Source: an uncultured Comamonadaceae bacterium
GTDB taxonomy: Bacteria; Pseudomonadota; Gammaproteobacteria; Burkholderiales; Burkholderiaceae_C
Length of the DNA: 17,212 nt
Assembly (NCBI GenBank): GCA_937893415.1
Contig: CALBWZ010000425.1
Coordinates: 1-17,212, forward strand
Reading direction: 5' to 3'
In this document: positions 320-17,198 of the stretch, piece by piece
Numbering within the stretch: the stretch's first letter is position 1
Layout: each line of letters starts with the position of its first letter
Program-made: the position numbers and the translations under genes
The notes under the pieces: generated by a model
The model's input: the letters and a program-made list of their open reading frames with translations, nothing else
Databases searched by the model: none
What the model was told of the DNA's origin: nothing

Positions 320-958
320 ATGTCACGTACTGCCGACGCACTCATCAATGCCATTGACAGCGGCCTGCGCACCCTGTTTGTTACACCGCATGCCAGTCGT
401 GCCCTAGATCTGCCAACTGACAACCCACCACTTAACGCAGCGCAGCAGCGTCACAGCGCGTCGCTGATGCGTGTCAACCATGTGGGCGAGGTCTGTGCGC
501 AAGGCCTGTATGCCGCGCAAGCGTTGGGCGCACGCGTGTTTTCTAAAGACGAGGCGTTGGCTGGCCATTTAGAAGCGGCCAGCATAGAAGAAAACGACCA
601 TTTGGCGTGGACCAGCGAGCGCTTGCACGAACTGAACGGGCGGCCTTCGTTGCTGAACCCTGTTTGGTACGCTGGCGCGTTTGCAATGGGTTTGCTGGCT
701 GCGCGCTTGGGCAAACGCGTGAGTTTGGGGTTTGTGGTGGCCACTGAACAGCAGGTTGAGGCGCATTTGGCCTCGCACATGACAAGGCTAGATCCCAACG
801 ACACCCGGTCCAACGCCATCGTGGCACGCATGAAAAAAGACGAGGCACGACACGCCAAACAGGCGCAGGCGGCCGGTGGCATGACATTGCCCCAACCCGT
901 GCAAGCAGCGATGCGGGGCGCGGCGAAAGTTATGACGACCGTGGCGCAGCGTATTTGA
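320..958 (+). CDS. coq7: 2-polyprenyl-3-methyl-6-methoxy-1,4-benzoquinone monooxygenase (Coq7)
   Basis: This is the di-iron hydroxylase of late ubiquinone biosynthesis, which converts demethoxyubiquinol to its 5-hydroxy form at the inner membrane. The 212-residue protein carries the ligand pattern of the family: E57 in the segment RVNHVGEVCAQGLY, E91 and H94 in EENDH, E143 in ATEQQVEAH, and E175 and H178 in DEARH. A helix-rich hydrophobic stretch around residues 115-140 fits peripheral membrane association. Length is usual for the betaproteobacterial form. The ATG at 320 has only a weak GGA (311-313) six bases upstream, but no other start fits. The gene appears monocistronic and converges on osmC. 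I am sure of the family and fairly sure of the function. Confidence 0.95.
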   Translation: MSRTADALINAIDSGLRTLFVTPHASRALDLPTDNPPLNAAQQRHSASLMRVNHVGEVCAQGLYAAQALGARVFSKDEALAGHLEAASIEENDHLAWTSERLHELNGRPSLLNPVWYAGAFAMGLLAARLGKRVSLGFVVATEQQVEAHLASHMTRLDPNDTRSNAIVARMKKDEARHAKQAQAAGGMTLPQPVQAAMRGAAKVMTTVAQRI

Positions 959-1227: not shown

Positions 1228-1677
1228 TTAAACCGACACGACTTCCACGGTGGTTGTGATGTCTGCGGTTTTACCCAACATAATGCTGGCAGAACAGTAT
1301 GTGTCGTGGCTCATGGCGACAGCGCGCTCCACCGCGGCTCTGGGCAGGTTGACGCCAGTCACCACGAAGTGCATGTGAATGTTGGTAAACACCTTGGGGT
1401 CGGTCTCGGCCCGTTGTGTGGTGAGTGTGACGGTGCAACCCGTCACTGTGTGACGACCACGCTTCAGAATTAAGACCACGTCGTAGGCAGTGCATCCGCC
1501 AGTGCCAGCCAACACCGTTTCCATAGGTCTAGCGGCCATGTTGGCACCGCCGTTTTCTGGCTTAGACGCATCGGGCGCGCCGTCCATGGTGATGACATGC
1601 CCGCTACCGGTTTCTGCCACAAAGCCCATGTTGGACTGAGCGCCTGTTGCGCCTGTCCACGTTACTGTGCATTCCAT
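1228..1677 (-). CDS. OsmC/Ohr family protein, YhfA-like
   Basis: This is a cytosolic OsmC-fold protein of 149 residues. Family members reduce organic hydroperoxides by thiol chemistry, although the YhfA branch is less well characterised. The two conserved cysteines are present: C62 in GGCTAYDVVLILKRGR and C128 in TYCSASIMLGK. The ARPMETVLAGTGG segment before C62 is typical of the YhfA subgroup. The start codon (complement of 1675-1677) has a good GGAG (complement of 1684-1687) six bases upstream. It stands alone on the minus strand, divergent from the small-RNA/ilvA region, with which it shares a promoter region. The substrate is unknown; confidence in the family is high. Confidence 0.93.
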   Translation of the reverse strand: MECTVTWTGATGAQSNMGFVAETGSGHVITMDGAPDASKPENGGANMAARPMETVLAGTGGCTAYDVVLILKRGRHTVTGCTVTLTTQRAETDPKVFTNIHMHFVVTGVNLPRAAVERAVAMSHDTYCSASIMLGKTADITTTVEVVSV

Positions 1678-1800
1678 TGATCACTCCAAATAAGAAAAAA
1701 CGGTGCAGCGCTTCGCGGCCTATGCGGCATAGACCTGACAAACCGCCCAAACCATAAAAAAACGCTCTGCTGCATTGCAACATACCGGTATACTTTGGGT
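1678..1800. promoter_or_regulatory. Divergent promoter region between osmC and the ilvA-side transcript
   Basis: A 10-bp perfect palindrome ATACCGGTAT (1782-1791) overlaps a good + strand -10 hexamer, TATACT (1789-1794); no convincing -35 sits 16-18 bp before it. On the minus strand TTGCAA (complement of 1775-1780) can act as a -35, with TTATGG 17 bp further on, for osmC. The osmC leader contains an inverted repeat CTATGC-G-GCATAG (1720-1732) that could be an operator or a short mRNA hairpin. The palindrome placed at the -10 suggests activator- or repressor-controlled initiation, which is inference only. Confidence 0.4.
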
Positions 1801-1834
1801 ATCGCGGTTGTTTGTGTGCAAGCACTTACAGTTT

Positions 1835-1934
1835 GGGCGCATATTCATGTGCCCCGACCGCAACCAGTTGTCTCCTCCACCTCCTCAAAACTGGTGGATT
1901 CAGCCTCAAGCTGTAAAGCTTGAGGCTTTTTTTT
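1835..1934 (+). ncRNA. Putative small RNA with anti-Shine-Dalgarno loop
   Basis: Three consecutive stem-loops are visible. The first pairs GGGCGCA (1835-1841) with TGTGCCC (1848-1854, one G-U pair) around a 6-nt loop. The second pairs ACCAGTT (1863-1869) with AACTGGT (1889-1895) around a 19-nt pyrimidine-rich loop, 1870-1888. That loop contains TCTCCTCC (1871-1878) and CACCTCCT (1878-1885), the latter identical to the anti-SD core of 16S rRNA. The third is an intrinsic terminator with an eight-T tract. This architecture suits a trans-acting sRNA that pairs with ribosome binding sites. The 5' end is uncertain: the -10 TATACT (1789-1794) would give a start near 1801 and about 134 nt. Reading through the region gives no sensible peptide. 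It could instead be a cis leader of ilvA. Betaproteobacterial sRNAs with anti-SD loops are known, but membership in a known family is untested. Confidence 0.6.
1902..1934 (+). terminator. Strong Rho-independent terminator upstream of ilvA
   Basis: The arms AGCCTCAAGCT (1902-1912) and AGCTTGAGGCT (1917-1927) are perfectly complementary over 11 bp around GTAA, and eight Ts follow (1927-1934). No protein gene on the + strand ends before it; coq7 ends almost 950 bp upstream and osmC points the other way. It must therefore end a non-coding transcript or an attenuated ilvA leader. Confidence 0.9.
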
Positions 1935-1977: not shown

Positions 1978-3552
1978 ATGCCAGCCACCCCACACACACC
2001 CACAACCAGCACAAGCAACTTGAGCCCCAGTGACTACCTCAGGCGTATTTTAAATGCCAAGGTGTATGAGGTTGCCAAAGAAACCGACTTAGACATTGCG
2101 CATACATTGAGCGCCAAGCTCAACAACACGGTGTTGCTCAAGCGTGAAGACCAGCAACCTGTGTTTAGTTTTAAGTTGCGGGGCGCCTATAACAAAATGG
2201 CCAACCTGAGCCGGGCACAACTCAAGCGCGGCGTCATTTGCGCATCAGCTGGCAACCATGCACAAGGTGTTGCCTTGTCGGCACGTAAATTAGGCACAAA
2301 GGCGCTTATCGTGATGCCAACCACCACGCCACAAGTGAAAATTGATGCTGTGAGGGGGTTGGGCGGTGACGTGGTGTTGTTCGGCGAAAGCTTTACCGAC
2401 GCTTACAACCACGCGGTAGAACTAGAGCAGAAAAAAGGGCTTACTTTCGTACACCCCTTTGACGACCCTGATGTGATTGCGGGTCAAGGCACCGTTGCCA
2501 TGGAAATGCTGCGACAACACACAGGTCCGCTTGACGCGGTATTTGTCGCCATTGGTGGCGGCGGACTGATTGCTGGCGTGGCCAATTACATCAAAGCAGT
2601 GCGCCCAGACGTCAAAGTCATTGGTGTGCAAATGAACGACTCTGATGCGATGGTGCAGTCGGTCAAAGCGGGGAAACGCGTGGCGCTGGCTGATGTGGGG
2701 CTTTTTTCTGATGGTACAGCCGTCAAACTGGTGGGTGCAGAAACATTTCGCGTGTCTAAAGAACTGGTCGATGACTACATCACCGTTGATACAGACGCCG
2801 TGTGCGCCGCTATCAAAGACATATTTACAGACACCCGCTCTATTGTTGAGCCCGCAGGCGCGTTGTCGGTGGCCGCCATTACGCAATATGTGGCCAAACA
2901 CAAGGTCAAAGGCCGCACCTTTGCAGCCATTTTGTGCGGCGCCAATATGAACTTTGATCGCCTACGCTTTGTCGCAGAACGTGCTGGTGTTGGGGAAGAA
3001 AGCGAGGCCTTGTTTGCCGTCAGCTTGCCAGAAGAGCGGGGCAGCTTTAAGCGATTTGTGCAATTGATTGGCGATTTGCCGGGCGGTCCACACAACGTGA
3101 CCGAGTTCAACTACCGCATGAATGATGCACAGCGCGCCAACGTGTTTGTGGGCTTGTCCACCAAAAAAGGCGAAAGCCCACAACTGGCAAAGCACTTTAA
3201 ACGCGGCGGCTTTGAAGCTTTAGACCTCACCCACGACGAGCTTGCCAAACAACACGTACGCCACATGATTGGTGGGCCCAACCCCCAAGGCGGTGACGAA
3301 CGCTTGCTGCGGTTTATATTTCCCGAGCGCCCAGGCGCTTTGTTGAAATTTTTATCCATGATGCAACCCAACTGGAATATCAGCTTGTTTCACTACCGCA
3401 ACCAAGGCGCTGACTACGGTCGTATTTTGGTGGGTATGCAAGTACCTAAGGCAGACAACAAGGCCTTTAAGACCTTCCTCACCACGCTGAACTATCCCAG
3501 CGTGGATGAGACTGATAACCCGGTATTTCGCTTGTTTTTAAAACCACAATAA
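1978..3552 (+). CDS. ilvA: Threonine ammonia-lyase, biosynthetic (IlvA)
   Basis: This is a cytosolic PLP enzyme that deaminates L-threonine to 2-oxobutanoate, the first committed step of isoleucine synthesis. At 524 residues it matches the long, allosteric biosynthetic form rather than the short catabolic one. The PLP-binding lysine is K66 in FSFKLRGAYNK. The phosphate-binding loop GGGG lies at 193-196. The C-terminal third has two ACT-like regulatory domains: one from about residue 346 (EERGSFKRFVQLIGDLPGG) and one from about 440 (ERLLRFIFPERPGALLKFL). These normally mediate isoleucine inhibition and valine activation. Start ATG 1978 has AAGGA (1965-1969) eight bases upstream. It is preceded by a strong terminator and followed after 16 nt by the nucleotidase gene. 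No Ile/Val/Leu-rich leader peptide was seen. Confidence 0.96.
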   Translation: MPATPHTPTTSTSNLSPSDYLRRILNAKVYEVAKETDLDIAHTLSAKLNNTVLLKREDQQPVFSFKLRGAYNKMANLSRAQLKRGVICASAGNHAQGVALSARKLGTKALIVMPTTTPQVKIDAVRGLGGDVVLFGESFTDAYNHAVELEQKKGLTFVHPFDDPDVIAGQGTVAMEMLRQHTGPLDAVFVAIGGGGLIAGVANYIKAVRPDVKVIGVQMNDSDAMVQSVKAGKRVALADVGLFSDGTAVKLVGAETFRVSKELVDDYITVDTDAVCAAIKDIFTDTRSIVEPAGALSVAAITQYVAKHKVKGRTFAAILCGANMNFDRLRFVAERAGVGEESEALFAVSLPEERGSFKRFVQLIGDLPGGPHNVTEFNYRMNDAQRANVFVGLSTKKGESPQLAKHFKRGGFEALDLTHDELAKQHVRHMIGGPNPQGGDERLLRFIFPERPGALLKFLSMMQPNWNISLFHYRNQGADYGRILVGMQVPKADNKAFKTFLTTLNYPSVDETDNPVFRLFLKPQ

Positions 3553-9201: not shown

Positions 9202-9507
9202 ACAAACAAGCATTCAGCGCCTTACCGTTTAAAAGCTGTTGCTGTTGTTATTGCTGAGCACCACCACATGGCTTCGAGGTTTCTAAGCTACCCACTGACT
9301 GACTAGATGCCTAACCATTCACATTGGCAGGGTCTTTGCTTGGGGGGCTCAAGAAATTAATGTAAGTGCTGCCATTTGTGTAGGTGTGAGCAATGGCTGA
9401 TTGGTAGATGCACAACGACATGGTCAAATAACGCCTGAGTGCTTTTTTTAAACCTGTGCACAGCAACCAGCATTGCAACACTGCCCATAACGAATGCCCA
9501 CCTATCT
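9202..9507. other. Non-coding gap between the sensor kinase and fructokinase genes
   Basis: No gene is supported in these 306 bases. A GCCATT/AATGGC pair (9371-9376, 9392-9397) with a 15-nt loop and a T-run (9443-9449) are present, but no stem precedes the T-run, so it is not a good terminator. A GTT/GCTGTT-rich stretch lies near 9233-9254. No clear promoter for the fructokinase gene was identified. Confidence 0.5.
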
Positions 9508-10428
9508 ATGCAAGTTACAGTTCTGGGCGAAGCCCTCATGGATTGCCTTCAGCAAGCTGACGGCCAACTCAAACCACTTCAAGGTGGCAGCCCCTTCAAC
9601 TTGGCAAGGGCCTGCGCCTTACAAGGGGTAAAAACCCACTATCTGAACCCGTTGTCTAACGATGCGTTTGGCGATGCGTTGAAAGCCAGCCTCGAACGTG
9701 ACGGCGTGGGCTTGCCACAGCTAAGGTCCAAATTGCCAACATCGTTAGCCGTGGTTCAGGTGGTGAATGGACAGCCAAGCTATGGCTTTTACCGCGAAGG
9801 CATTGCCGACCGCGACTACGCTGTGCAAGCCATTTTGGCGCAACTAACTGACATGACACCGGGCGTGTTGCACACCGGGTCGTTGCTACTCATACCCCCA
9901 GAGCACCTGAAGGTATTGGCGGTTGTGCAAGGTGCCAAGGCGCTGGGCTGGACCATCAGCATGGATATCAACATGCGTCCCAGCGTGGCTCCAGATTTAC
10001 CGGCTTACGTACACGCCGTCAAGTTGCTGTCACAAGAGGCGGACTGGTTAAAGGCCAGTGATGAAGACTTGGCAGTACTGGGCTTTGCATCCATCAACTT
10101 GGCCAACGCCGGCGCGTTGTCAACGCACTTCCCCAATGCAAGCCGCATTGCACTGACTTGTGGTGGCGATGGCGCATGGCTACAAGTGGACAAACACACC
10201 GCACAAGCCAGCGTGCCCAAGGTCGATGTCACCGACACCGTGGGCGCGGGCGATACCTTTTGGGGCAACTGCTTGGCCGACTGGGCAACAACCCATGCGC
10301 CTGGCAGCCCCGCAACGGAGCGCGTAGCCTATACGCTGCGCAGAGCGATGCAGGCGGCTGCAATCAACTGCACACGCTTAGGCTGCCAGCCTCCAAACGC
10401 TGCTGAATTAACCAATGCGCTGCGCTAA
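9508..10428 (+). CDS. PfkB-family carbohydrate kinase, probable fructokinase
   Basis: Expected to phosphorylate a sugar at the primary hydroxyl using ATP, most likely fructose to fructose-6-phosphate in the cytosol. The start chosen is ATG 9508, because MQVTVLGEALMDCL is the usual first strand of this family; an in-frame GTG at 9439 would only add an unrelated 23-residue tail. That gives 306 residues, a normal length. The N-terminal PfkB signature includes GGSPFNLARACALQG (26-40). The C-terminal signature DVTDTVGAGDTFWGN holds catalytic D249. SD support is absent. It sits upstream of the zwf-pgl-edd-eda-pgi run in the same direction but 279 bp away, with hairpins between, so it probably has its own transcript. 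Substrate assignment as fructose rests on similarity and context; other ketose kinases are possible. Confidence 0.85.
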   Translation: MQVTVLGEALMDCLQQADGQLKPLQGGSPFNLARACALQGVKTHYLNPLSNDAFGDALKASLERDGVGLPQLRSKLPTSLAVVQVVNGQPSYGFYREGIADRDYAVQAILAQLTDMTPGVLHTGSLLLIPPEHLKVLAVVQGAKALGWTISMDINMRPSVAPDLPAYVHAVKLLSQEADWLKASDEDLAVLGFASINLANAGALSTHFPNASRIALTCGGDGAWLQVDKHTAQASVPKVDVTDTVGAGDTFWGNCLADWATTHAPGSPATERVAYTLRRAMQAAAINCTRLGCQPPNAAELTNALR

Positions 10429-10578
10429 AAAAACGGTCAGGCGAACCGCGTTCGTGACAAACAAGCACATGCAGCCTCATTGACCTCACCTGTTGGACCA
10501 TGTAGGGCGGTTGTAGTTACATACGCAACCATCTAACCGCCAACGCCTGCAACCCGAGATTGGCTCTGGTAGATAGCT

Positions 10579-10590
10579 GCAAGCGCTTGC
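10579..10590. promoter_or_regulatory. 12-bp palindrome GCAAGCGCTTGC, LacI-family operator-like
   Basis: A perfect palindrome with a central CG, preceded by T (10578), matches the general shape of LacI/GalR-family sugar-regulator operators (TGNAANCGNTTNCA). It lies 118 bp before the zwf start. The position suits a repressor or activator of the ED operon, but no LacI-family gene is in view. Assignment to that family is inference from shape alone. Confidence 0.45.
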
Positions 10591-10639
10591 GCTTCAATTG
10601 GCAATGAAACCTCGTTGTAACCAATTAAACAAAAAAACA

Positions 10640-10654
10640 TGTAACTGAATTACA
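10640..10654. promoter_or_regulatory. HexR-type operator upstream of zwf
   Basis: TGTAACTGAATTACA has perfect 5-bp arms TGTAA/TTACA and 6 of 7 symmetric pairs across 15 bp. HexR, an RpiR-family repressor that is released by KDPG, binds sites of the type TGTAATTAAATTACA upstream of zwf, edd and related genes in many Proteobacteria. The box ends 53 bp before the zwf start codon and overlaps a possible -10 (TACACT, 10651-10656), as expected for a repressor site. The hexR gene itself is not in the window. Confidence 0.7.
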
Positions 10655-10707
10655 CTTTCATACATGCGTGCTGGGTAGAGCAAGTGCGCCACAACAGGAC
10701 AATACCG

Positions 10708-12171
10708 ATGAGTGACACGAACAACGTAGACATAGTGATATTTGGTGGTGCGGGCGACTTGGCTTTTCGCAAGCTGGTGCCTGCGCTTTTTATGGCGCAT
10801 ATGCACAACAAGCTAGAAGGTAACGCACGCATTATTGGCGTAGGCCGGCAAGCATGGGGACGCGATGATTATTTGGCGTTCATCACCGAAAAAACCCGCC
10901 CTTTCCTAAAAGACGCGCTCAAAGAAGCCAACGGTGAGACCTGTTGGACCAGCTTTCTTGACCGCTTGTACTTTGCCAGCATCGATGTGACCCAAGCAGA
11001 CGACTACAAACACCTGACCGTCTTGAGCACAGAAGGCGCACAGCGTGTGTTTTACCTAGCCACAGCACCCAGTTTGTTCACGCAAATTTGCAGCCATTTA
11101 GACAGCGCCGGTTTGATAGACGCGCAAGCGCGGGTGGTTTTAGAAAAGCCCTTGGGTCACGACTTGGCCTCAGCCAAGGCCATCAACGACCAAGTGGCCC
11201 AACACTTTGCGGAGAGTCAGATTTACCGCATTGACCATTATTTGGGCAAAGAGACTGTACAAAACCTGATGGTTTTACGCTTCGGCAACGCCATCTTTGA
11301 ACCACTGTGGCGCAGCCCAAATATTCGCAGTGTGCAAATTACTGTGGCTGAAACAGTAGGCGTGGGCAGCCGTGCAGGCTTTTACGACCAAACCGGTGCG
11401 GCGCGCGATATGGTTCAAAACCATTTGTTGCAACTGCTCTGTATAGTGGCTATGGAGCCGCCCATTTCGCTGCAGCCCAACGACGTACGAGACGAAAAAC
11501 TGAAGGTGTTGCGCTCGCTTCGCCCCATGACCGCTGTAGATATCAAACGCGACACCGTTAGGGGCCAATACAAAAGCGGCACCGTAGAAGGCGTTGCTGC
11601 CGTAGGCTATTTGGCTGAAGAAAACGTACCAGCCAACAGCACGACGGAAACGTTTGTTTCACTGAAAGCCCACATCAATAACGCGCGCTGGGCCAATGTG
11701 CCATTCTATTTACGCACAGGCAAGCGCATGCAGCACAGACGCTCAGAAATCATCATTGAATTTGATGACATGCCCTTCTCTATTTTTTCGGGCGCAGCCA
11801 ACAGCCAACCCAACCGTTTGGTGATTAGTTTGCAGCCTGAAGAATCTATTCAGTTGAAAATGATGGTGAAAGAACCGGGCTCGGGCATGAACATGCGCCC
11901 AGTCAACCTTGACCTAGACATGCGTTCAGCCTTTACAGAACGCCGTGCCGAGGCGTACGAGCGCTTGCTCGTGGATGTGGTGAAGGGTCGCTTGACGCAC
12001 TTCATGCGCCGCGATGAACTGGAAGCTGCGTGGTCGTGGGTTGAGCCCATATTGAATGGCTGGGCTGCATCTGGCGAGCCGCCAAAGGCATACAACGCAG
12101 GCACCTGGGGCCCTGCCGCCTCATCGGCATTGATGGCGCGCAGTGAACACACATGGTTCGAAGAGTCTTAA
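10708..12171 (+). CDS. zwf: Glucose-6-phosphate 1-dehydrogenase
   Basis: Oxidises glucose-6-phosphate to 6-phosphogluconolactone with NADP(+) or NAD(+) in the cytosol, the entry to the ED and oxidative pentose routes. The dinucleotide-binding loop is FGGAGDLAFRKL at residues 12-23. The substrate and active-site segment RIDHYLGKE contains H177 and K181. The catalytic-type histidine H239 lies in MVQNHLLQ. ATG 10708 is chosen because it puts the Rossmann strand VDIVIFGG at the usual distance from the N terminus; an in-frame GTG at 10684 would add eight unsupported residues. The resulting 487 residues is the family norm. It is the first gene of the ED run, directly behind a HexR-type box, and is followed after 22 nt by pgl. 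Coenzyme preference cannot be read by eye. Confidence 0.96.
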   Translation: MSDTNNVDIVIFGGAGDLAFRKLVPALFMAHMHNKLEGNARIIGVGRQAWGRDDYLAFITEKTRPFLKDALKEANGETCWTSFLDRLYFASIDVTQADDYKHLTVLSTEGAQRVFYLATAPSLFTQICSHLDSAGLIDAQARVVLEKPLGHDLASAKAINDQVAQHFAESQIYRIDHYLGKETVQNLMVLRFGNAIFEPLWRSPNIRSVQITVAETVGVGSRAGFYDQTGAARDMVQNHLLQLLCIVAMEPPISLQPNDVRDEKLKVLRSLRPMTAVDIKRDTVRGQYKSGTVEGVAAVGYLAEENVPANSTTETFVSLKAHINNARWANVPFYLRTGKRMQHRRSEIIIEFDDMPFSIFSGAANSQPNRLVISLQPEESIQLKMMVKEPGSGMNMRPVNLDLDMRSAFTERRAEAYERLLVDVVKGRLTHFMRRDELEAAWSWVEPILNGWAASGEPPKAYNAGTWGPAASSALMARSEHTWFEES

Positions 12172-12193
12172 ATACACGCAAGGAGACATTGCC

Positions 12194-12916
12194 GTGCCAC
12201 TGAACATTCGAGAACACAGGTTACCCAACGCCGATGCGTTGGCGCAATCGTTGGCCGCAGACATTGCGCAACGCTTGCTGCTCGTCTTGCGCCGCCAAAC
12301 CACAGCGACCCTGTTTGTGTCAGGCGGCAAATCGCCGATTGCGCTCTTTAAAGCCTTGGCAGCACGTGCGCTGCCGTGGCACGCCATTACAGTGTCTTTG
12401 GCTGATGACCGCTGCACACACAACACAGATGAGGCCAGCAATGCGCTGCTGGTGCGCAACCACTTGCTGCAAGATTATGCGTCTTCAGCCACGTTTGTAC
12501 CTGTGGTCGATATTGGCCCACACACACCCATACCAAGCCCGCTGACGTTGGCAGATACAGCCACACAGCAACTGAAAAAAATGGCTGGCATTGATGTGCT
12601 GGTGTTGGGTATGGGCGCAGACGGACACACCGCTTCGCTGTTTCCTCAAGCACCACAGCTGCGTGTTGGCTTGGACCTGCAACAAAGCGTCGGATACATT
12701 GCCACCAGCCCTCAAAAAGCTGCTTTTGAGCGTATCAGTTTGAACTTAGCGGCTATCTTATCGGCACGCCATATTGCCGTGGCCATAGGCGGCGGCGCAG
12801 ACAAACATGCGGTGTTCGAGCAAGTTAAATCTGCCAAGACTGACGCGCTACCGTTGTCGCATGTGCTGCACAACCATGCTGGCACATCCAACATAGACAT
12901 TTGGCTCAACGACTAG
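12194..12916 (+). CDS. pgl: 6-phosphogluconolactonase
   Basis: Hydrolyses 6-phosphogluconolactone to 6-phosphogluconate (Pgl/DevB, glucosamine-6-phosphate isomerase-like fold). Family marks are SGGKSPIALFKAL near the N terminus, SLADDRC in the middle, and GMGADGHTASLFP. The start is taken as GTG 12194, because a strong AAGGAG (12180-12185) lies eight bases upstream and the protein then begins at the usual place, giving 240 residues. An in-frame GTG at 12143 would overlap the end of zwf and lacks such a signal. The 22-nt gap to zwf indicates co-transcription. A small hairpin GGCTG/CAGCC (12918-12922, 12931-12935) follows the stop. Confidence 0.93.
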   Translation: MPLNIREHRLPNADALAQSLAADIAQRLLLVLRRQTTATLFVSGGKSPIALFKALAARALPWHAITVSLADDRCTHNTDEASNALLVRNHLLQDYASSATFVPVVDIGPHTPIPSPLTLADTATQQLKKMAGIDVLVLGMGADGHTASLFPQAPQLRVGLDLQQSVGYIATSPQKAAFERISLNLAAILSARHIAVAIGGGADKHAVFEQVKSAKTDALPLSHVLHNHAGTSNIDIWLND

Positions 12917-12993
12917 CGGCTGGCACCTAACAGCCACTCCGCCTTGCATGTATACAACCTGATCAACCACTCCAACACACACCAACACACGCC

Positions 12994-14871
<1,878 letters not shown>

Positions 14872-14908
14872 ACAAACAACGCACACAACGCCCCACGAAA
14901 GCCACACC

Positions 14909-15559
14909 ATGTCGTACCTCCCGCTGCCCAGCTTCAACAGCAAAACGGTGCCTGTCATCGTCATTACCGATGTGGCCCAAGCTGTGCCCATGGCCCACGC
15001 ACTGCTGGCAGGCGGCATTGATGTCATGGAGATCACGCTGCGCCATCCAGCAGGTCTGCCCGCTATTGAAGCTGTGGCCAAGGCTGTGCCTGAGATGGTG
15101 GTCGGTGCGGGCACGGTGACCACACCCGAACAGGTGCAGCAAGTCGTCAACGCTGGTGCCACGTTTGCCTTGTCGCCAGGTATGACACCGGCCTTGATTG
15201 CAGCCATCAAAGCAGCCAAACTGCCGTTTGTACCTGGCGTCATGACACCGGGTGAAGCGATGGTGGCACATGAGCACGGCTTTCAATTGCTCAAACTGTT
15301 TCCCGCAGCGCAGGCTGGCGGCTTGGCCATGCTCAAAGCCATGGGCGGTCCATTGAGCGAGCTGCGGTTTTGCCCAACTGGTGGCGTGTCGTTGGCCAAC
15401 ATGAATGAGTTTCTAGCGCTGCCCAACGTGGCGATGGTGGGCGGGTCTTGGCTCACCCCTGCCGATCTGGTGTTACAAGCCGCTTCCAGCTCAGACTGGT
15501 CCAGCATCACCAAACTGGCACAACAAGCCACCGATCAAGCCGCAAGTTCGCAGCAATAA
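14909..15559 (+). CDS. eda: KHG/KDPG aldolase
   Basis: Cleaves KDPG to pyruvate and glyceraldehyde-3-phosphate, the last ED step. It is a class I TIM-barrel aldolase. The Schiff-base lysine is K129 in FQLLKLFPA. The proton-relay E41 and phosphate-site R45 lie in MEITLRHPAG. GAGTV is at 67-71, and the C-terminal phosphate loop is in CPTGGVSLANMNEFL. ATG 14909 is chosen, giving 216 residues, because the in-frame upstream extension would overlap the end of edd and resembles nothing. SD support is poor (CGAAAG about ten bases upstream). The gap to edd is 37 nt and to pgi 40 nt, consistent with one operon. Confidence 0.95.
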   Translation: MSYLPLPSFNSKTVPVIVITDVAQAVPMAHALLAGGIDVMEITLRHPAGLPAIEAVAKAVPEMVVGAGTVTTPEQVQQVVNAGATFALSPGMTPALIAAIKAAKLPFVPGVMTPGEAMVAHEHGFQLLKLFPAAQAGGLAMLKAMGGPLSELRFCPTGGVSLANMNEFLALPNVAMVGGSWLTPADLVLQAASSSDWSSITKLAQQATDQAASSQQ

Positions 15560-15599
15560 GCCGAAACCAGCTTTAACAAGACCGCAACCAGACACCACC

Positions 15600-17198
15600 A
15601 TGGCAGCCAACTTCACAGCCCCACAACACACAGCCGCTTGGCAAGAACTTGCCAAGCTGCCCACCACGGCGCATCTGCGTGACACGCTGCAAGACCCTGC
15701 CAGACACAACGCCATGCAACTCAGTGCCGCAGGCATCAGTTTGGATTTTTCACGCCAGCGCGTGGATATGCAGACCCTGTCGGTCTTGCACCAACTGGCC
15801 CAAGAGCGTCACGTCATGGCGCAGGCTCAAGCCATGGCTCAGGGTGCCCCTATCAACGCCACCGAAGACCGTGCGGTGCTGCATATGGCCTTGCGTGGTG
15901 CGGGGCAAGCCAACCCACCGTGGGGGAATGCCATCAGCCTACAAGTCAGGGCTGAACTGCATAAGTTTTTAACATTCGCCGATACCGTTTACAGAGGCGA
16001 GGCCCTCGGCCACACTGGCCTCCCCATCACGGATGTGGTCAATGTAGGCGTTGGCGGCTCTGACCTGGGCCCACGCATGGCGGTGCAAGCGTTGGCTGGT
16101 AACGCAGGCAAGCAAGTGCGTATGCACTTTGTATCTAACCCTGATGCATGGGCCTTGCACCACACACTCAGCACCTTAGATGCATCGCGCACTTTGGTGG
16201 TGGTACTGTCCAAAACATTTACGACACAAGAAACACTCACGCTGGCCACCAGTGCACGTGAATGGTTGGTAGACAGCGGCATCAGCGAGACTGACATAGG
16301 CCAACACTTGGCCGCTGTGTCAGCCGCCACCGATAAAACAAGTGCCTTTGGCGTGCCACCTGAACGGGTGTTCGGTTTTTGGGATTGGGTGGGTGGTCGT
16401 TATTCAGTGTGGTCGGCCATTGGCCTGCCGTTGGCCATGGCCATTGGCAGCGACAATTTTTTATCGTTTTTGGCTGGCGGGCACGAGATGGACCAGCACT
16501 TCCTACACGCGCCAGCACAGCAAAACTTGCCACTCACCATGGCGCTGTTAGGCGTATGGAACCGCAATTTTTTAGGCGCACCCACGCAACTGATTGCGCC
16601 TTATGCGTGGCGTCTAGAAAAGTTCACCGCCTTCGTTCAGCAAATGGACATGGAGTCCAACGGCAAATCAACGCTCACCAACGGCGAATCGGTGGCCGTG
16701 GCGACTGGCCCCATTGTGTGGGGTGGCTTGGGTATTGACGGACAACACGCTTACTTCCAGCTCATTCACCAAGGCCAGCATCTGGTGCCTGTGGACTTTA
16801 TCGGCGTGCGTACCGAGGACACGCCAGGCCCACGCGCGGCAGAACACCACCGTGTCACATTGCTCAACCTCCACGCCCAGGCACAAGCTTTGGCCTGCGG
16901 TCGCGATGACATGGCTACAGCTCAGTCGCTGCGGGACGCGGGCTTGGGCCAGGCCGACATCACGCGCCTAACCCCCCACCGCAGCTTTGCAGGCAACGTG
17001 CCCAGCAACGTGCTGTGGCTAGACGCACTCACACCCAAAACGTTGGGTGCGCTGGTTGCGTTGTACGAGCACAAAGTGTTTTGCCAGGCCGCCATTTGGG
17101 GGACTCACGCGTACGACCAATGGGGTGTTGAGCTGGGCAAAACCATGGCCAAAAGCATGGAGCAACACGCACAAGCCTGCACCACGAAGCGGAGTTGA
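15600..17198 (+). CDS. pgi: Glucose-6-phosphate isomerase
   Basis: Interconverts fructose-6-phosphate and glucose-6-phosphate in the cytosol. At 532 residues it is the full-length bacterial form. Sugar-phosphate-binding segments are VVLSKTFTTQETL and VGGRYSVWSAIGLP. Catalytic residues sit in the usual motifs: E352 in MDMESNGKS, H383 in DGQHAYFQLIHQG, and K514 in DQWGVELGK. ATG 15600 has no SD; the preceding 40 bases are C/A-rich, as in front of edd and eda. Placement after eda suggests the operon is built to feed F6P, made by the upstream fructokinase or recycled from triose phosphates, back into Zwf. The gene is complete; only 14 bases follow it. Confidence 0.96.
   Translation: MAANFTAPQHTAAWQELAKLPTTAHLRDTLQDPARHNAMQLSAAGISLDFSRQRVDMQTLSVLHQLAQERHVMAQAQAMAQGAPINATEDRAVLHMALRGAGQANPPWGNAISLQVRAELHKFLTFADTVYRGEALGHTGLPITDVVNVGVGGSDLGPRMAVQALAGNAGKQVRMHFVSNPDAWALHHTLSTLDASRTLVVVLSKTFTTQETLTLATSAREWLVDSGISETDIGQHLAAVSAATDKTSAFGVPPERVFGFWDWVGGRYSVWSAIGLPLAMAIGSDNFLSFLAGGHEMDQHFLHAPAQQNLPLTMALLGVWNRNFLGAPTQLIAPYAWRLEKFTAFVQQMDMESNGKSTLTNGESVAVATGPIVWGGLGIDGQHAYFQLIHQGQHLVPVDFIGVRTEDTPGPRAAEHHRVTLLNLHAQAQALACGRDDMATAQSLRDAGLGQADITRLTPHRSFAGNVPSNVLWLDALTPKTLGALVALYEHKVFCQAAIWGTHAYDQWGVELGKTMAKSMEQHAQACTTKRS

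Follow-up and report, generated by a model that had tools for sequence, protein, structure and literature searches.

An RF02278-family small RNA with a putative PhaR-type operator at its promoter, and phasin mRNAs that share its seed, in Burkholderiales

The 17,212-nt stretch of DNA analysed here, hereafter called the window, raises the question of which RNA is encoded around positions 1835–1934 and what might control it. An earlier note had wondered whether the segment belongs to the Betaproteobacteria toxic small RNAs of Rfam, and a cmscan search answered in the affirmative. Positions 1869–1933 of the plus strand matched RF02278, the family of that name, with 59.5 bits against the curated cut-off of 50, over positions 1–64 of the 64-position model. 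RF02278 was the sole Rfam family matched in the window at E values up to 1, and the anti-hemB RNA (RF02837) gave no match within the window at that threshold. The window RNA is a real element of a known kind, with a mature form of about 65 nt (1869–1933, plus strand) whose predicted 5' end is the T of TGTC, as in the processed form of S17 (S17S) described below. The source genome, a 2.4-Mb draft of 468 contigs in which the window is contig C425, had a single RF02278 match at E up to 1. Among 40 genomes comprising the source genome and members of its genus, family and order, matches at E 0.01 were present in 34 and matches exceeding the cut-off in 24; in an order sample of 300 genomes, the source genome included, the family was detected in 164 at E 1e-4 and in 114 over the cut-off. 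The Burkholderia RNA ncS35, which had been cited as an example, was a poor choice, as its authors report no Rfam hit; the RF02278 members in B. cenocepacia are ncS03, ncS05, ncS27 and ncS62. In the family that we call f8, four genomes (G030, G079, G292 and G321) had six to nine matches each, and the f8 copies in loci L022, L280, L293 and L317 had altered loops and lacked the operator discussed below.

The fold predicted for 1835–1934 was well below those of shuffled sequences (z -6.9; 0 of 200 as low). As in RF02278, the RNA has two hairpins, the second being an intrinsic terminator, and these are maintained by compensatory change. The first hairpin (1876–1898, plus strand), assigned from pair probabilities and conservation, has the stem 1876–1881/1893–1898 and a loop, 1882–1892, containing UCCUC, which is predicted to serve as a second pairing site. 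With four different 5' ends, the pairs 1877–1881/1893–1897 had probabilities of 0.88–0.99 and the outermost pair, 1876–1898, of 0.77–0.87. The strong terminator (1902–1934, plus strand), already recognized in the earlier note, has an 11-bp stem at 1902–1927 and a T-run at 1927–1934, and was identified by a terminator scan and by covariation; terminator-like sites numbered 2 against 0.3 in shuffles, and the second, on the opposite strand, is the promoter dyad described below. In an alignment of 18 sequences, 96.7% of the cells of both Rfam helices were paired and 8 of 15 pairs were changed on both sides. Cells changed on both sides numbered 23, compared with 6.0 after shuffling and at most 6 after sliding, and the covariation was 0.294 against 0.127 for shuffled alignments. 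Most of this was contributed by the terminator (nine pairs counted, six with two-sided changes, one pair open in 7 of 18 sequences). In the first hairpin, 100% of the cells were paired and two pairs were changed on both sides, while the other four of the six were invariant and thus uninformative on covariation.

The 7-bp stem with a 19-nt loop (1863–1869/1889–1895), which the earlier note had drawn, was not supported. Its pair probability was 0.004–0.113 across the 5' ends, its energy was -7.7 kcal/mol compared with -9.1 kcal/mol for the 6-bp Rfam hairpin, and the two folds are mutually exclusive. Within the genus, the 7-bp stem was fully kept only in the window and in L014 and L062, which, judged by their letters, are an identical sequence twice, and five other rows had lost one to four pairs; in contrast, the Rfam hairpin was intact, with 6/6 pairs, in all eight same-genus rows. 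Covariation of the stems, which the earlier note had proposed as a check, was found in the Rfam hairpin and terminator helices; the 7-bp stem decays within the genus.

The conserved seed of the RNA is the 5' GUCUCCUCC (1870–1878, plus strand), not the 16S-like CACCUCCU. Positions 1870–1875 are predicted to be single-stranded in the mature form, with a mean unpaired probability of 0.99 for the transcript 1869–1933, 0.97 for both 1863–1933 and 1801–1933, and 0.53 for 1835–1933. The two pyrimidine motifs to which the earlier note had drawn attention are present, TCTCCTCC at 1871–1878 and CACCTCCT at 1878–1885, and the latter, which we take to be identical to the anti-SD core of 16S rRNA, had raised the idea that the RNA mimics this region and acts as a general, toxin-like inhibitor of translation, an idea that the family name suggests as well. 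Overexpressed RF02278 relatives are reported to inhibit growth, which would suit such a mimic. However, CACCTCCT was kept in 21 of 135 family loci, compared with 130 of 135 for GTCTCCTCC, and selection therefore appears to act on the 5' seed rather than on 16S identity. Moreover, the CACC portion is mostly paired and UCCUC lies in the loop of the first hairpin, so that no 16S mimic is displayed in a large loop: the letters are there, the proposed exposure is not. Stationary-phase entry was only modestly impaired and S17 acts on specific sites, as reported in PMC11722255, and we consider a 16S mimic very improbable. A small protein encoded across the small RNA was considered and rejected, since in seven loci of the same genus no frame ahead of TGTCTCC gave a peptide that was conserved past the closest relative. 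Two frames ran without a stop across the conserved letters of the RNA, in 6/7 and 5/7 of these loci, as conservation of the RNA alone would yield; the S17 paper mentions a possible 32-residue frame (PMC11722255).

The genes around the RNA were traced by tblastn, using the window's own neighbours as queries against 167 loci, the window's own included; as many of these loci are incomplete, the counts are lower bounds. A divergent gene at 1228–1677 (minus strand), which we take to be OsmC-like, was matched in at least 136 of the loci, a presumably coq7-like gene at 320–958 (plus strand) in at least 84, and a downstream gene at 1978–3552 (plus strand), which we assume to be ilvA-like and to encode a threonine deaminase, in at least 79. 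The frequency of the last neighbour, together with the RNA ending about 44 nt ahead of the ilvA start, would fit a 5'UTR or attenuator of ilvA with no separate RNA; this reading is scarcely credible in view of the strong terminator, of loci 8 kb long, L042 and L045 among them, that have the RNA and osmC and no ilvA match, and of homologues reported as discrete RNAs of 57–92 nt. S17 of Bordetella pertussis, as described in PMC11722255, adjoins coq7, occurs as a 190-nt form (S17L) and a processed 67-nt form starting at T, is cleaved by RNase E, depends on Hfq and shows BvgA-linked expression; its silencing at ribosome binding sites is backed by reporter fusions, and the 27 nt from its processed 5' end are conserved across Betaproteobacteria. 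The window RNA shares with S17 both the coq7 neighbourhood and a conserved stretch that begins at the T where S17S starts. From the synteny of osmC, coq7 and ilvA and from the position of S17 beside coq7, the window RNA is best taken as a likely syntenic ortholog of S17, S17 being compared by its published description. By analogy with the conversion of S17L to S17S, a longer primary transcript would begin near 1801, and its predicted 5' leader (1801–1868, plus strand), which contains a hairpin at 1835–1854, would be removed by processing. The long and processed forms, the Hfq dependence and the BvgA link are demonstrated for S17, whereas the window RNA is known from its sequence. Farther along the window, at 9439–17198, lies a sugar-catabolism run; judged by their translations, its genes resemble those for a sugar kinase, zwf, pgl, edd, eda and pgi.

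The earlier note mentioned neither a promoter operator nor a link to phasins. At 1767–1783, a dyad to which no strand is assigned, CTGCTGCATTGCAACAT, agrees at 16/17 positions with the Ralstonia eutropha PhaR consensus and overlaps the presumed -35 hexamer CTGCTG (1767–1772), which makes it a putative PhaR site at the promoter. The PhaR palindrome deduced in R. eutropha is YTKNTGCRNYGCANMAR (PMC12849132), and CTGCTGCATTGCAACAT also fits the motif TG[N]TGC[N]3GCAA found within the footprint of PhbF, the Herbaspirillum homolog of PhaR (PMC3206438). The presumed -10 hexamer, TATACT (1789–1794, plus strand), was assigned by its position relative to the operator. In a simple scan of the window no consensus sigma-70 promoter passed, and CTGCTG is a poor -35 match; in the window's genus, 19 nt separate the operator from the -10, and TTGYTG, within the box itself, would serve as the -35. 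The operator sits within 1678–1800, between the divergent osmC and the small RNA, so that osmC could be affected too. With one mismatch allowed, the PhaR consensus had 71 sites in the source genome, compared with 26 for the reversed pattern; the consensus is degenerate on this count, and the excess suggests that the regulon may be wider.

To place this dyad in a wider sample, at least 128 places with the exact 18-mer TGTCTCCTCCACCTCCTC were collected, of which 122, the window's own included, passed the small RNA check; the six failures were five chance matches and L133, which ends early. Among the matches listed, the core TGCnnnGCA occurred within 200 nt in 109 of the 122 upstream regions and an operator matching at 14/17 or better in 106. 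The latter compares with a mean of 4.6 and a maximum of 10 in 100 Markov shuffles, and with 29 of 1092 random stretches of the same loci. The spacing, measured from the base preceding the core to the TAnnnT hexamer in the 106 operators listed, was 23 nt in 70 and 22 nt in 17 (22–23 nt in 87 together), 19 nt in 6, 24 nt in 4 and 29 nt in 2, with no hexamer in 7. At this spacing to the -10, the operator covers the -35. In two loci of family f4, L221 and L227, the promoter is TTGCAT-17-TACTAT, the published S17 promoter, and its TTGCAT lies inside a 16/17 operator. In the S17 study, this promoter (PS17) needed no activator and a repressor was postulated and left unnamed (PMC11722255).

The source genome encodes PhaR (PF07879; C191:2007–2186, E 1e-28), phasin and PhaC, and PF07879 was detected in 31 of the 40 genomes, the source genome included, and in 202 of the 300 of the order sample. 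Occurrence of the operator over the -35 region was linked to PhaR. The operator was present in 77 of 97 small RNA loci with PhaR and in 1 of 38 where PhaR was not found (p 1.8e-17), and, counted per genome, in 76 of 93 and 1 of 29, respectively. As the PhaR-less genomes cluster by family, so that independent events are few, each family and PhaR state was also counted once, giving 15 of 19 with PhaR and 0 of 10 without it (p 5e-5). The PhaR-bearing set was a sample; the PhaR-less set comprised 28 of the 47 such genomes of the order sample (anchorable ones among the matches listed) and G009. L256 and L276, which could not be anchored, were left out, as were the weak matches L028, L029 and L030, and L007, with 37 nt of upstream sequence, was scored as operator-less. 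Within a family or genus, G009, G319 and G032 lacked both PhaR and a proper operator, while their PhaR-bearing relatives have the operator (the assembly of G009 is 78% complete); a counter-case is G165, of the genus of G032, in which PhaR was present and the operator absent. The only operator-bearing locus without PhaR was L239. Among the 20 PhaR loci without an operator, 8 were in f8 and f32, which have multi-copy genomes, 8 in f5, f22, f44 and f49, and 4 in f1, f4 and f10.

These counts bear on a simpler account, in which the window encodes an ordinary RF02278 small RNA silencing GGAGACA-type sites and the -35 dyad is another regulator's site or a feature of the promoter, with no part for PhaR. 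In line with it, 37 of the 38 PhaR-less loci have the RNA without the operator, the operator core often opens with the -35-like TTGC, and the co-occurrence of the small RNA and PhaR genes was weak (both in 117 genomes, small RNA only in 47, PhaR only in 85, neither in 51; p 0.11). However, the operator follows PhaR both between families and in the three within-family contrasts above, and the same motif stands upstream of the phasin gene phaP in 28 of 29 loci. Retention of a TTGC -35 without the second half of the dyad in PhaR-less loci says little either way: 3 of 38 such loci start with TTGC (one with the second half), compared with 40 of 97 loci from PhaR genomes (30 with the second half). 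We regard this account as unlikely, though one to be taken seriously, and favour control of the RNA by PhaR. In many of the PhaR-less loci L240–L272 the promoter is of another kind, marked by an AT-rich, TATTAG(A)TAAT-like stretch; by eye, a short inverted repeat also precedes TGTCTCC.

The phasin genes came into view through weak RF02278 matches just downstream of them in seven genomes (G002, G003, G006, G009, G013, G016 and G019). The phaP operators counted above, mostly two about 58 nt apart, exclude L197, whose upstream sequence is short. On the 3' side, GTCTCC[T/A] within 170 nt past the stop, followed by a T-run, was found in 21 of 29 loci, the source genome included (L207, at a contig end, was omitted); by family, 20 of 23 loci in f1 had the element, compared with 1 of 6 elsewhere. 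Among 23 further genera of the family, 22 had the phaP operator and 15 the seed element. Where PhaR was not found, phaP had no operator in G002, one in G003, and two in G006 (assembly 79% complete) and G009. The element consists of (T)TGTCTCCT(C/T), a long hairpin and a terminator. Its outer stem was 95.8% paired in 20 sequences, with 26 cells changed on both sides, compared with 6.7 after shuffling and at most 4 after sliding, and a covariation of 0.656 against 0.248 shuffled and at most 0.182 slid. Among 18 scanned loci out of 30, seven scored 26.1–33.2 bits, below the RF02278 cut-off, and the other 11 gave no RF02278 match at E up to 0.5; the element is accordingly termed seed-sharing and not a member of the family. 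The 3'UTRs of L186, L193 and L196 had a weak likeness to the anti-hemB RNA (RF02837), at 23.5–26.6 bits against a cut-off of 49.5, and locus L185 a weak match to CC0196, below its cut-off. We infer that the phaP 3'UTR element may be released as a small RNA.

New here are the PhaR-type operator on an RF02278 promoter and the phasin mRNAs with the same seed, a covarying hairpin and a terminator. We think it probable that the window encodes an RF02278 small RNA, orthologous to S17, that is controlled by PhaR in response to PHB, silences uptake and catabolism, and is reinforced by a phasin RNA. PhaR, a repressor that gives up its DNA sites to bind PHB granules, would keep the small RNA promoter off; it departs the phaP1 promoter once granules form, according to PMC12849132. 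PHB accumulation would thus remove PhaR and relieve repression, and the small RNA would be made as a leader transcript and cut at the T of UGUCUCC. With the help of Hfq, GUCUCC and the UCCUC loop would pair with ribosome binding sites of GGAGACA type and so switch off uptake and catabolism. The phasin mRNA, which these operators would also control, would release from its 3'UTR, or carry there, another RNA sharing this seed, so that both RNAs would act on uptake genes. Whether Burkholderiales in general have such a circuit, with granule-titrated PhaR governing an RF02278 small RNA and a second one from the phasin 3'UTR, and the shared GUCUCCU silencing GGAGACA-type mRNAs and closing nutrient import, seems to us an evenly balanced question.

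RF02278 RNAs have so far been described as toxic or growth-slowing, and no named transcriptional controller was found in the literature examined. If PhaR is that controller, a broad post-transcriptional programme would take its input from the carbon-storage granule, and the phasin mRNA 3'UTR would gain a regulatory role. The B. cenocepacia RNAs ncS03, ncS05, ncS27 and ncS62 share with the window RNA the covariance match, two hairpins, CU-rich stretches and a seed complementary to ribosome binding sites, where silencing is predicted for them; the window RNA differs in its longer predicted leader and its single match in its own genome. Levels of ncS03, ncS05 and ncS27 are reported to rise in biofilm, on starvation and in glucose medium, and overexpressed NcS27 to slow growth on some substrates. 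In PMC5688073, the regulator of accumulation of its small RNAs is stated to be unknown, and the "common upstream motif" of its Fig. S3 may be the PhaR-type operator. PhaR as a whole word is absent from the main texts of PMC4603805, PMC5688073, PMC11722255, PMC10987360 and PMC7011215, and none of the titles and abstract openings among the matches listed joins PhaR or phasin to RF02278. Sinorhizobium meliloti, an Alphaproteobacterium, offers a precedent in MmgR, a PHB-linked small RNA under the control of AniA (PhaR). MmgR is reported to lower the amount of phasin; in the present case, it is the phasin mRNA that bears the seed. The review that describes MmgR also calls riboregulation of PHB in C. 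necator undeciphered (PMC8401924).

Candidate targets were sought in the source genome, where GGAGACA followed by ATG 2–10 nt on occurred 26 times, compared with 11 for the backward pattern. The 26 occurrences represented 24 distinct sites, 19 of them with open frames of at least 100 codons. In L031–L149 (118 loci), ACA was outside the top 12 triplets after GGAG at starts, whether ranked by enrichment or by frequency, a result that says little because this sample repeats one locus. Proteins from 10 of the 24 sites were searched, and four were solute-binding proteins (PnrA-like, SBP_bac_8, Peripla_BP_6 and Peripla_BP_4). The others were an acyl-CoA dehydrogenase, an AMP-binding enzyme, a short-chain dehydrogenase, a 3-hydroxyisobutyrate dehydrogenase-like protein, one with molybdopterin-binding and xanthine dehydrogenase domains, and one without a family. 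The 3-hydroxyisobutyrate dehydrogenase-like candidate can be compared with mmsB, whose reporter was lowered about 2-fold by S17S overexpression, and the gene list of the S17 authors includes 32 transporter-related genes or operons, as given in that paper (PMC11722255).
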